Positions 8,497 to 12,242 of a stretch of DNA of 64,000 nt are shown here, in pieces (the stretch's first letter is position 1; every line of letters starts with the position of its first letter). Under the pieces are notes generated by a model, which had not been told where the DNA came from, searched no databases, and was given only the letters and a program-made list of their open reading frames with translations. This DNA is from Geitlerinema sp. PCC 7407 (GTDB lineage Bacteria; Cyanobacteriota; Cyanobacteriia; PCC-7407): contig NC_019703.1 of assembly GCF_000317045.1 (NCBI RefSeq), forward strand, positions 1,538,501 to 1,602,500. Direction: 5' to 3'. Position numbers and translations under genes: made by a program.

Positions 8497-8522
8497 AGAG
8501 AGGGGGCGATCGCCCCCTCTCT
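8497..8522 (-). terminator. Palindromic hairpin after gatC
   Basis: A perfect 26-base palindrome (arms of 12, AT in the centre) built around a HIP1 octamer, 40 bases past the leftward gatC stop. There is no long T-run. Probably a 3' end for the ycf3-gatC transcript. Confidence 0.5.
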
Positions 8523-8560
8523 CAAATCCGGCTCATTTGCCCCAGCAACCGGAAATCTTG

Positions 8561-8851
8561 CTATTCGCCGCCCATAATCTGCGGGACGCGGAAGTAGTCG
8601 CCCTCTTGCTCGGGCGCACCCGCCAGCACCACATCACGATCGCCGTAGGGCTGTAGCGTATCGGGGCGGGTGATGTTGCTCACGTCGATGGCCCGGGTTG
8701 TCGGCGGCACCGCCTCCGTCTCCAGCTCGCTCAGCTGCTCCACGTATTCCAGGATGCTGCTGAGCTGGGTGGCGAACTGAGTTTCTTCCTCAGCCGTCAG
8801 CTCCAGACGGGCCAGGTTTGCCACTTTGTGAACTTGCTCGCGATCAATCAT
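8561..8851 (-). CDS. gatC: Aspartyl/glutamyl-tRNA amidotransferase subunit C
   Basis: A 96-residue GatC, the small wrapping subunit of GatCAB, which converts Glu-tRNA(Gln) and Asp-tRNA(Asn) to the amidated forms. Typical features are the N-terminal [17 protein letters not shown] helix, the [13 protein letters not shown] helix and the C-terminal extended belt with [12 protein letters not shown] and YFRVPQIM. Length is normal. gatA and gatB are not in the window, the common cyanobacterial situation of a dispersed complex. It sits 54 bases downstream of ycf3 in the same direction, so cotranscription is plausible. Confidence 0.95.
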
Positions 8852-8905
8852 GAATCTTCATCAACGTAGGACAGGGTTAGCAATCTAGGCCAGCGCGGCC
8901 TGTAC

Positions 8906-9427
8906 TTAGAAGAAAATATCCATCTTGGAGCGGCCCGTGGTTTTGAGCCAGTTCTGGGCTTCGATGTAGTTGTTGGGCGCGAGACGAATCGCCCGCTTCC
9001 AGTATTCTGCGGCCTTGTCAAACCACTCCTCGGCCGCTTCGAGGTCTCCCTGCTCCTTGGTCTCGTCTCCCTTGAAGTGGTAGATCACTGCCACATTGTT
9101 GAGGGCCTGGGGCAGACGGGGATTGAGTTCTAGGGCCTCGTGATAGGACTCTAGGGCCTTGTCGTGATCGCCGTTGCTGGTGTAGATCAGCCCCACATTG
9201 TAGAGAATGTAGCTGCGATCGTAGGGGTCTTGCTCCAGACGAAGCGCTTCTTCGTAGTTCTTCATGGCCTCGGCATATTCGCCGTCTGCCTGGGCTGACA
9301 TGCCGTCCCGATAGTAGGCAAAGGCTTCCTTCGCGGCTTGGTTGGTGGGCAGCAGCTTGAGGATCAGGTCTGCCATCACCGTGAAGGTTTTGTCGATGAA
9401 GTTGTCGTTGCGTTGTGTTCTTGGCAT
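8906..9427 (-). CDS. ycf3: Photosystem I assembly protein Ycf3
   Basis: A 173-residue Ycf3, a thylakoid-associated chaperone for assembling photosystem I subunits. It opens with [20 protein letters not shown] and contains three tetratricopeptide repeats (about 35-68, 72-105 and 120-153), including [18 protein letters not shown] and [18 protein letters not shown], then ends in the conserved GRSKMDIFF-type tail. Length equals the chloroplast and cyanobacterial orthologues. Start ATG at 9427. Confidence 0.97.
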
Positions 9428-9475
9428 AGCGGCTTCTTAAACCCCCTGGGACGGAAGAGCCGTCGGTGGGCTCGA

Positions 9476-9506
9476 TTGACAGTGGTTGAATCGATTGCTT
9501 TTTAGT
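9476..9506 (+). promoter_or_regulatory. Possible sigma-70-type promoter of an orphan transcript
   Basis: A perfect TTGACA (9476-9481) is followed after 19 bases by TTTAGT (9501-9506), four of six matches to the -10 consensus. It points right, away from ycf3, towards a terminator at 9687-9718, with no credible gene between. Spacing is slightly long. It could also be chance. Confidence 0.3.
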
Positions 9507-9512
9507 TTAGCG

Positions 9513-9718
9513 CCCTGCTGCCGCTGTCCACGCAGTGATTTGAGGCGATCGCCTGGGCTGCCCGCCGCGATCGCGGCCCCGGCAACTCGGGGAACCCCAG
9601 CCAGGGAAATTCAGGAAATTTGCAGAACTGTCCGGAGGGAAGCCCGTATCGACGAATACAAGAGTGGTAGATGCACCCTGATACTTATCCCCGTCCTCAT
9701 GCCGGGGATTTTTTTGTT
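9513..9718 (+). ncRNA. Candidate small RNA between ycf3 and the Rieske gene
   Basis: This is an inference from signals, not homology. The 400-base gap between two leftward genes contains a rightward promoter-like pair (9476-9506) and a textbook rightward terminator (9687-9718) with no convincing protein between them; the open frame across it runs through the terminator. The implied transcript is about 200 nucleotides. I looked for the Yfr1 motif ACTCCTCACAC and did not find it, and the GTCCGGAGGGAAG stretch only loosely resembles the SRP RNA tip. Both ends are approximate. The rest of the gap (9428-9828) shows nothing else. Confidence 0.25.
9687..9718 (+). terminator. Orphan rightward rho-independent terminator
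   Basis: A 7-base stem (9687-9693 with 9703-9709), 9-base loop and a T-rich run TTTTTTTGTTTT directly after. The U-tract lies on the plus strand only, so it cannot serve either leftward neighbour. Confidence 0.75.
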
Positions 9719-9745
9719 TTGGCGGGTCTGGACTCAAGAAAACGC

Positions 9746-9774
9746 CCTGCGATCGCCATGAAGAGAATCGCAGG
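9746..9774 (-). terminator. Weak hairpin after the FAD/Rieske gene
   Basis: An 8-base perfect stem (9746-9753 with 9767-9774) lies 55 bases past the leftward stop at 9829. On the minus strand it is followed by GGGCGTTTTC. The T-run is short. Confidence 0.35.
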
Positions 9775-9828
9775 ACGCGCTAGGGTGCGTCGGGTGTGAA
9801 CGCAACTTTAGATAAAACTCAGAAAACC

Positions 9829-11352
9829 CTAGGCCTTGACCTCGACGGACTTGGGCGCGAGGCCTTCGACCGCAGGGCCTTCTAGGATTTTGCCGTCACA
9901 GCTAAAGCGTGAGCCGTGGCAGGGGCAGTCCCAGCTCTGTTCGGCGTTGTTCCAGCTCACTAGACAGGCTAAGTGGGGACAGATGGGCGATACCGTGTGG
10001 AGGTTGCCCTGCTCGTCGCGGGAGGCAGCAATGCGATCGCCGTCGATAGTGACCAAACGCCCCTCTCCCGGTTGCAGGTCCTGAAGGGAGTGATCGGTCA
10101 AGCCCTTAAAGCGATCGCCGATCCAGTGGGCCGCCACATCGATGTTTTCCTGGATGGACTTCTTGGAGACGAAGGGGGTCGCTCGCAGAGAGTCGTAGAG
10201 GCTGGCCCAGGGATTGGGTCGGCCCAGAATCAGGTCCGACAAAATCATCGCCGATAGAGTCCCCTTGCTCATGCCCCACAGACTAAAGCCGGTGGCAACG
10301 TACACATGCTGGTGCAGGGGCGTCAGGCGGCCAATGTAGGGCAGCTTGTCAAAGGAAACAATGTCTTGGGTGGACCAGCGGTAGGTCGGCTCGACCCCAA
10401 ACTGCTGGCGCATGTAGTCTTCGAGCCGGCGATAGCAGGTTTCGGTGTCTTCTTTCTCGCCGGTCTTGTGGCCTTCGCCTCCCACGATCAGCAGGGTGCC
10501 GCCTTCGTGGGGCGTGGTGCGAATGGAGTGGTAGTCCTCGCCCGCTCCGATAAACATGCCTTGGGGGGCGATCGCCGGGTCGATCGGTGCACCCACCAGG
10601 TAGGACCGTCGGGGAAAGCTCTTGGCAAAGTACAGCCCCTCATCCCGAAACGGCAGATGGGTCGCCAAGATCACATCCTGGGCCCGCACTGTGCCCCGAT
10701 CGGTCACCACTGAGCAGGGGTTTTCGCCCTCTAGGGACACGGCCCGGGTCTGCTCAAATACGTGGCTGCCGTCGCCGGGAATCTGGGCAGCGAGGTGCAG
10801 CAGGTATTTGCGGACGTGGAACTGCGCCTGGTCTGCGAAGCGCACGGCCCCCAGCACCGGGAAGGGCAGCGAAGTTTCCGTCACAAAGTCCGCTGGCAGA
10901 CCCAGCTTCTGAGCCGCCTCGACCTCAGACCGGACCTGCTTCAAGTCTTTTTCCGTGGTGGCGAAGGTGTAGGCGCTCTGGCGAGAAAAATCGCAGTCGA
11001 TCTGCTCTTGGGCCACCAGATCAGCCACAAAGGCGATCGCCGCTTGATTGGATTCGCCGTAGAGGCGCGCCTTGTCCTCGCCGAGCTGCTGGACCAGGTC
11101 TGCGTACACCAAGCGGTGCAGAGACGTCAGTTTAGCGGTGGTATATCCCGTCGTCCCCTGCACTATCTGGTCTGCCTCGATCAGGGCCACTTTTTTGCCA
11201 GCCCGCTTCAGCAGCAGAGCCGCTGTAATCCCCACGATGCCGCCGCCCACAACGGCCACATCCACCTCGATATCACCCATCAAGCCGGGATAGTCGGTCT
11301 CAGGCGTCGAGTCGATCCAGTAGGAAACGGGCTTTCCAGACAAACCACTCAT
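9829..11352 (-). CDS. FAD-dependent oxidoreductase with C-terminal Rieske [2Fe-2S] domain
   Basis: A 507-residue fusion. The N-terminal DAO-type flavoprotein has the dinucleotide-binding VAVVGGGIVGITAALLL (about residues 33-49) and the acidic end of the second strand (VALIEAD). TTGYTTAKLTSLH is typical of this subfamily. The C-terminal 95 residues form a Rieske domain: cluster ligands Cys458 and His460 in CPH, and Cys476 and His479 in CPCH, with the GSRF loop. Such fusions are often called gamma-glutamylputrescine oxidase-like; the substrate is unknown. The ATG at 11352 is preferred; the longer frame adds 39 residues of unconserved sequence. No signal peptide, so probably cytosolic. Confidence 0.88.
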   Translation of the reverse strand: MSGLSGKPVSYWIDSTPETDYPGLMGDIEVDVAVVGGGIVGITAALLLKRAGKKVALIEADQIVQGTTGYTTAKLTSLHRLVYADLVQQLGEDKARLYGESNQAAIAFVADLVAQEQIDCDFSRQSAYTFATTEKDLKQVRSEVEAAQKLGLPADFVTETSLPFPVLGAVRFADQAQFHVRKYLLHLAAQIPGDGSHVFEQTRAVSLEGENPCSVVTDRGTVRAQDVILATHLPFRDEGLYFAKSFPRRSYLVGAPIDPAIAPQGMFIGAGEDYHSIRTTPHEGGTLLIVGGEGHKTGEKEDTETCYRRLEDYMRQQFGVEPTYRWSTQDIVSFDKLPYIGRLTPLHQHVYVATGFSLWGMSKGTLSAMILSDLILGRPNPWASLYDSLRATPFVSKKSIQENIDVAAHWIGDRFKGLTDHSLQDLQPGEGRLVTIDGDRIAASRDEQGNLHTVSPICPHLACLVSWNNAEQSWDCPCHGSRFSCDGKILEGPAVEGLAPKSVEVKA

Positions 11353-11469
11353 AGACCAGCGTCCTCTTCGTGCATATCTGCCTTGATTGCACTGCACCCG
11401 TCGACGCTTCTCCTCTATCCGCTGCCAGACTTCTTCTCGCCAAAGGGCAGAGCTGCCCCAATTCGCCAC

Positions 11470-11500
11470 AAAAAAGGGGGCAGCCCGGGCTGCCCCCTTT
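11470..11500 (-). terminator. Rho-independent terminator of rpe
   Basis: A perfect palindrome of 14-base arms (11473-11486 with 11487-11500; a small loop must open in the centre), followed on the minus strand by a T-run from the A-tract at 11470-11475. It lies 40 bases past the rpe stop. Confidence 0.85.
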
Positions 11501-11540: not shown

Positions 11541-12242
11541 TTAGACCGTTGCCAGTTCCGGACGCTTGCTGTTGCGAATGTCGGTGATCGCCTTGGCGTA
11601 ATCCGGCGCGTTGAAGACGGCTGAACCCGCCACGATCGCGTTGGCGCCTGCCTCCAGCACCTGCCAGGTGTTGTTGGCCTTCAGGCCGCCGTCCACTTCG
11701 ATCCAGGGATCGAGGCCCCGCTCATCACAGATTTGGCGAAGCTTGCGGATCTTGGGCAGCACCGACGGGATGAAGCTTTGACCGCCAAAGCCAGGGTTGA
11801 CGCTCATGATCAAGATCAAGTCGCACACTTCGAGTACATACTCGATCAGCTCGAGGGGGGTAGAGGGGTTCAGCACCACGCCCGCTTGCTTGCCGAGTTC
11901 GCGGATCTGGCACAGCGTGCGGTGCAGGTGGGGAGAAGCGTTGTGCTCAGCGTGGACCGAGATGATGTCAGCACCCGCTTTGGCGAAGTCGGCGACGTAC
12001 TTCTCAGGCTCGACGATCATCAGGTGAACGTCGAGGGGCTTGGTCGTCACAGGCCGAATCGCCTCAACGATCAGGGGACCAATGGTGATGTTGGGAACGA
12101 AGCGACCGTCCATCACGTCCACGTGAACCCAGTCGGCCCCCGCCTCGTCAATGGCTCGAATCTCGTCGCCTAGGCGGCTGAAATCTGCTGATAGGATGGA
12201 TGGAGCGACAACAATAGGCTTTTGGGATTTCGTGTCGGTCAT
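11541..12242 (-). CDS. rpe: Ribulose-phosphate 3-epimerase
   Basis: A 233-residue TIM-barrel enzyme interconverting ribulose 5-phosphate and xylulose 5-phosphate in the Calvin cycle and pentose phosphate pathway. Family motifs: [16 protein letters not shown] near the N-terminus, [16 protein letters not shown] with the metal-binding His and Asp, [24 protein letters not shown] and the IEVDGGL strand with the second catalytic Asp. Length is standard. Start ATG at 12242, with AGGAGAG upstream at a somewhat long distance. Transcribed alone by its terminator. Confidence 0.97.

Follow-up and report, generated by a model that had tools for sequence, protein, structure and literature searches.

A probable NsiR1-type small RNA gene beside ycf3 in a HetR-carrying cyanobacterium

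The small RNA gene and its probable promoter

The gap between ycf3 and an oxidoreductase gene in the window, i.e. the whole stretch of 64,000 nucleotides that we analysed, very probably hosts NsiR1, a small RNA that depends on HetR, as a solitary copy at positions 9665-9715 of the forward strand. This is the best explanation of the evidence as a whole. The gene, which would give an RNA of about 51-54 nt, matches the Rfam family NsiR1 (RF02399) with 49.1 bits, where the cut-off is 39, and with an E-value of 1.2e-6 for 64 kb and both strands. The family is expected to be an RNA of about 60 nt with a Rho-independent terminator; here the match spans model positions 1-60 of 60 in 51 nt and ends in a T-run. 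Its first 18 nt are the 5′ segment of the family consensus, UGGUAGAUGCACCCUGAU. A 14-nt core, TAGATGCACCCTGA (9668-9681, forward strand), presumably forms a single-stranded base-pairing segment, and is the same in 127 of 164 copies from 31 other genomes. The intrinsic terminator (9687-9715, forward strand) has a 7-bp stem, with arms at 9687-9693 and 9703-9709, and a T-run at 9709-9715. This is the rightward hairpin with a U-run that an earlier note on this DNA had described.

The terminator taken alone is at chance level (two in 2.5 kb vs. a mean of 2.6 in shuffled sequences), and its folding energy is uninformative (z-score of -0.37 for the RNA). What stands above chance in the gap is the NsiR1 match, together with a TCCGGA motif spaced as in other NsiR1 copies. 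Within 9400-9850, NsiR1 is the sole Rfam family to reach its cut-off. Sub-threshold Rfam matches to Hrs1, lincRNA-p21 and suhB over the element (E-values 0.27-0.36) are at chance level, and were rejected as its identity.

Both flanking genes run leftward, as the earlier note had stated. The first is ycf3 (8906-9427, reverse strand), which encodes a photosystem I assembly protein (NCBIfam NF002725, 316 bits, cut-off 143). By their coordinates ycf3 and the sRNA are divergent, with 238 bp between the two starts. On the other side, the sRNA faces the end of a gene for a FAD oxidoreductase with a Rieske domain (Pfam DAO and Rieske); the longest open frame covers 9829-11469 on the reverse strand, and the actual start could lie inside this frame. 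The gap holds no tRNA, again in agreement with the note, which had proposed a small RNA of unknown kind. A rightward sRNA gene does end at the terminator to which it pointed, but the kind is probably a known one.

Two perfect palindromes lie further out. One of 26 bases, AGAGAGGGGGCGATCGCCCCCTCTCT, is found at 8497-8522, in the gap that separates the ketol-acid reductoisomerase gene from gatC, and contains GCGATCGC, which we take to be HIP1. The other, of 28 bases (AAAGGGGGCAGCCCGGGCTGCCCCCTTT, 11473-11500), is placed like a terminator, downstream of a leftward gene at 11541-12242 that looks rpe-like by eye.

The most likely promoter of the window RNA is a DIF1 motif, TCCGGA, at 9631-9636 of the forward strand, rather than a TTGACA/TTTAGT pair further upstream, and the RNA most likely starts near 9665 rather than near 9510. 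Counted from the start of the Rfam match, the motif is at -34. A presumed -10 region, GAATAC (9654-9659, forward strand), fits the consensus GaA-Aa at -11 to -6 of 85 DIF1 copies. In Anabaena, hetR, patS, patX and nsiR are described as having DIF1 motifs with their centre in the -35 region; the control there is reported to run via HetZ more directly than via HetR, and substitution of TCCGGA abolished the expression of a patS reporter (PMC7377430). Individual DIF1 promoters are also reported for the NsiR1 copies of Nostoc PCC 7120 (PMC9045159).

Inside the promoter of the window copy, GTATCGACGAATAC at 9646-9659 fits the pattern GTA-N8-TAC. We take this pattern to be an NtcA-type motif. Such a box is found in none of the 164 other copies and its distance is wrong for activation, therefore we treat it as probably a chance occurrence. 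NsiR4, which we had considered as the identity of the RNA because of this box, was dropped.

Copies in the host genome and across the phylum

The host genome is a single contig of 4,681,111 bp. It encodes one HetR, which scores 592 bits with the NCBIfam model (cut-off 489). Just upstream of hetR, behind a TCCTGA, is a small ORF with RGSGR that is matched by no NCBIfam model; we assign it ourselves, as putatively patX-like. The best NifH match in the host reaches 218 bits, vs. a cut-off of 394. As HetR and the patX-like ORF are present and the NifH match is below its cut-off, the host apparently has a HetR circuit without nitrogenase, and therefore presumably no nitrogen-fixing heterocysts.

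The exact core occurs five times in the host genome, as dispersed single copies. A search with up to two mismatches returned 14 places, vs. 17 for the reversed pattern, and only the five exact ones were used. Three of these, the window copy and two siblings, have TCCGGA at -34. The first sibling (L001, 62 bits) is divergent from hetF, which is the arrangement published for Anabaena (PMC8406250); as the gene is truncated by the edge of the locus, HetF scores 603 bits here and stays under the 1200 that its model requires. The second (L002, 50.6 bits) lies between lgt and cobM. The other two copies are below the Rfam cut-off. One of them (L004, 31.9 bits), at a locus without an assignment, has TCCAGA at -34, and the other (L244:1460-1517, reverse strand, C1 4297091-4297146, 24.9 bits) stands before argJ and in the same direction, with GGGGTATCACCCC at -39 and CATACT, and no DIF1 motif. 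The host has no tandem NsiR1 array, and only one of its five single copies is beside hetF.

We searched 386 sampled genomes of the phylum, scoring in each the best first-look candidates (13 for NsiR1, up to nine for HetR and six for NifH), therefore copy numbers are lower bounds and absence is to be read as 'not found'. NsiR1 is above its cut-off in 79 of the 386 genomes, and so is HetR. Both are found in 77 genomes, which span 15 family labels; two genomes have only NsiR1 (G227 and G306), two only HetR (G056 and G081) and 305 neither. The Fisher value for this co-occurrence is about 1e-80, which overstates the case because the genomes are related. G227 and G306, with 11 and one NsiR1 matches respectively, were searched again with the host HetR protein, and no HetR was found. 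G227 also carries four copies of the palindrome class described below, therefore it may have lost its hetR, or the assembly may lack the gene. As for the background of the Rfam search, there was one sub-threshold match in an E. coli control. A further 15 genomes have only matches below the cut-off (best E-values of 2.6e-5 to 5.2e-4), and the 13 of these without HetR were counted as negative.

We take one family, f7, to be heterocyst-forming, because of its hetF-linked arrays (HetF in 16 of 30 f7 loci) and not because of names. Outside f7 there are 37 genomes with NsiR1, including the host, and in 22 of them, again including the host, NifH was not found; 21 of the 22 have at least four NsiR1 matches. 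The NifH test does not define heterocyst formers, since 13 of the 42 f7 genomes are also without a NifH match. Clusters of copies are likewise found outside f7 (in G036, G058, G097, G170, G227 and G358).

The promoters were compared in the upstream DNA of 164 copies from 31 genomes outside f7. These copies are part of 185 matches listed, the 21 left out being 15 from G358, four from G227 and one each from G209 and G261. Of the 36 NsiR1-positive genomes outside f7 other than the host, 29 were included (seven same-genus genomes were omitted), and G056 and G081 bring the number to 31. Among the 164 copies, 85 have exact TCCGGA between -37 and -32, vs. a mean of 0.11 and a maximum of two in 200 base shuffles. 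A one-letter variant stands there in another 48, and in 33 of them it is TCCTGA (shuffles: mean 3.3, maximum 12). GGGG-N5-CCCC without DIF1 occurs in 21 copies (shuffles: mean 0.05, maximum one), and no copy has both motifs. This leaves ten copies, six of which have a GGG-N5-CCC palindrome. The sequence GGGN5CCC is described as a potential HetR-binding site (PMC7377430), and the GGGGTGACACCCC-type sites of the palindrome class, which come with a TATA-like -10, appear to resemble such sites.

The exact pattern of the palindrome class is found in 48 of the 386 genomes, and the reversed pattern in none of the 386. HetR is present in 47 of the 48, 34 are outside f7, and the two genomes with only HetR above are among them. 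When either class is counted, Rfam or palindrome, a copy is found in 79 of 79 HetR genomes and in two of the 307 others. Within f7, 30 loci (L005-L034) hold 157 exact-core copies. Of these, 114 carry TCCGGA between -37 and -32 and 43 do not, and GGGG-N5-CCCC is within 60 nt of none of the 157. The terminator stems vary, with 89 distinct outer stem strings in the 164 copies from outside f7. Nevertheless, every one of these copies folds with at least five pairs, and at least four T's are found in the eight bases after the stem in 134.

Synteny was sought within about 1.5 kb of each copy. A copy is adjoined by lgt and/or cobM in 20 of the 31 genomes (by both in 14) and by hetF, divergent in each case, in seven; for G227 the evidence is a short alignment about 1 kb away. 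ycf3 adjoins a copy in one of the 31 genomes (G358), and the neighbours of L004 do so in one (G195). The palindrome class is adjoined by argJ in the host and at seven of 30 other such loci (L255-L284), namely those of G060 and G008 and five of the six f7 loci in this set.

The earlier note had advised a search of syntenic gaps beside ycf3 in relatives. We ran this with the 14-nt core, allowing up to two mismatches, on 80 named ycf3 loci; in 75 of them that side extends for 600 nt or more. NsiR1 copies, confirmed by Rfam, were found at two loci, those of Moorena bouillonii (three above the cut-off) and Moorena sp. SIO3I8 (six). Their side and their divergent orientation relative to ycf3 match those of the window copy. 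The ycf3 position is not widely conserved, as the other 78 loci are without the core. Both common descent and separate insertion would fit the ycf3 position in the window and Moorena. One further match (L118), with two mismatches, on the other side of ycf3 and without a DIF1 site, was not counted. Among the M. bouillonii copies is also a match to a group II intron domain (L104:902-981, forward strand, 54.7 bits, cut-off 40).

A possible mechanism and rival explanations

In Anabaena, nitrogen step-down activates the HetR circuit. In the host, an active circuit would fire the DIF1 promoter at 9631 and so give an RNA of about 51-54 nt, consisting of the 18-nt conserved 5′ segment followed by the Rho-independent terminator. 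If Nostoc PCC 7120 is a guide, the 5′ segment may pair with the translation-initiation regions of target mRNAs, resulting in less translation. In that strain NsiR1.4 is reported to bind the start region of the alr3234 mRNA and to lower its translation, and NsiR1.1 to act antisense on the hetF mRNA (PMC9045159). There is a dissenting report, in which removing or altering the -10 of nsiR1.1 made little change to the fluorescence of a hetF reporter (PMC8406250).

The variable stem and the near-constant core form a seed-plus-terminator pattern, therefore a trans-acting repressor is to be expected when HetR is active. We infer transcription, dependence on HetR or HetZ in the host, the -10 region and repression in trans. 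A 10-nt complement of the core is found at six sites in the host outside the NsiR1 genes, vs. two for the reversed pattern and about nine that we estimate for a random 10-mer, and none of the six is clearly at a start codon. Duplex energies of target sites were set aside, as these were computed without a control.

The RNA could also act primarily in cis, as an antisense on the 5′ UTR of ycf3 that tunes photosystem I assembly when HetR is active. We consider this unlikely. The position suits such a role, as the sRNA is divergent from ycf3 and close to its start, with the same arrangement in the two named Moorena loci and in G358; moreover, the hetF start site of Anabaena falls inside the NsiR1 array, at a distance of 256 bp upstream of the gene (PMC8406250). 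However, the same 5′ segment is found in copies at unrelated loci (lgt-cobM, hetF and argJ), which points to trans targets. Furthermore, copies beside ycf3 occur in few lineages (two of the 80 named loci and one of the 31 genomes), and the promoter scan of the region was negative. We know of no transcription start site for ycf3. If the ycf3 mRNA starts beyond 9715, in the way that the hetF mRNA of Anabaena starts beyond NsiR1.1, an extra effect in cis is conceivable, if speculative.

The window copy might instead be a decayed relic of NsiR1 that was formerly HetR-dependent and is now neither transcribed nor functional in this strain, which is improbable in our opinion. The NifH match below the cut-off would agree with decay. 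So would the single copy kept by G306, a genome without detectable HetR, since its motif, TGCGGA, illustrates that solitary copies with an altered promoter exist. Yet the 5′ segment, terminator, TCCGGA and spacing of the window copy are all intact, as is the HetR of the host, and the 21 of 22 NifH-less NsiR1 genomes outside f7 with at least four matches also argue against decay. There is very little chance, finally, of an unrelated RNA of about 200 nt that runs from the TTGACA/TTTAGT pair (9476-9506, forward strand) to the same terminator, the transcript implied by the earlier note. The letters of both hexamers are present as claimed, TTGACA at 9476-9481 and TTTAGT at 9501-9506. But a spacer of 19 nt separates them, TTTAGT has no A at position 2 and a promoter scan of 8500-11000 returned no promoters, therefore this transcript is unsupported and the pair is probably not the promoter of the NsiR1-type RNA. 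The longer RNA also leaves aside that the Rfam match starts at 9665 with a DIF1 site at the right distance, and that NsiR1 alone reaches an Rfam cut-off here. A solitary NsiR1 copy is the reading we prefer.

Implications and relation to known systems

The way in which NsiR1 copies track HetR in our sample suggests that the RNA may predate heterocysts. On balance we favour the view that NsiR1 did not originate as a heterocyst RNA but as the RNA arm of a more ancient HetR circuit in filamentous cyanobacteria. Siblings with a near-invariant 14-nt segment would then occupy positions that are conserved in part, at lgt-cobM, hetF, argJ and ycf3, under two HetR-linked promoter types, DIF1 and GGGG-N5-CCCC palindromes. 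The heterocyst formers would have amplified one of these into the hetF array, and the palindrome class would be a directly HetR-bound type of sRNA. The wider pattern would thus be a family of sRNAs that is linked to HetR, uses two types of promoter and does not depend on heterocysts.

If nearly every genome with HetR also has NsiR1-type RNAs, these provide a short and measurable HetR output in filamentous strains in which heterocysts never form, and a way to ask what HetR does there. This would be a handle on what the HetR circuit controlled before heterocysts evolved, with the window gene as one instance.

In the literature that we searched, as far as the text was available to us, we met no description of the lgt-cobM position, of the palindrome class or of the way in which NsiR1 co-occurs with HetR; part of this may be in the NsiR1 papers of 2010, 2011 and 2014, a co-expression paper of 2019 and the Rfam species list. 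NsiR1 outside the heterocyst formers is not wholly new, because RNA162 of Limnospira indica PCC 8005 is in print (PMC8400943). Like the window RNA, this is a short RNA (57 nt) that resembles NsiR1 in a filamentous, hetR-positive strain with neither nitrogen fixation nor heterocysts. The resemblance comes from a radiation transcriptome, and the available parts of that paper do not cover its promoter, its copies or co-occurrence with HetR (PMC8400943). A second parallel is the patX-hetR region of Leptolyngbya BL0902, a non-heterocystous, nif-less, filamentous strain with a HetR circuit and a predicted DIF1 promoter (PMC11298460). Unlike the window RNA, these are protein genes, and the word NsiR1 does not appear in the accessible text of that report (PMC11298460).

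The window element adds a member to the known NsiR1 family. It is like NsiR1 of Anabaena/Nostoc PCC 7120 in its length, 5′ segment and terminator, in the DIF1 motif near -35, and in that one copy in the host is divergent from hetF. In contrast to the tandem array of 12 copies upstream of hetF in Nostoc PCC 7120, a trait of that locus which the Rfam model does not include, the host copies are single and scattered, and the window copy is beside ycf3. Finally, NsiR1 is heterocyst-specific in Nostoc PCC 7120, and a heterocyst-forming, nitrogen-fixing host is the setting of the described members though not an element of the model, whereas the host of the window copy is without a NifH match above the cut-off.
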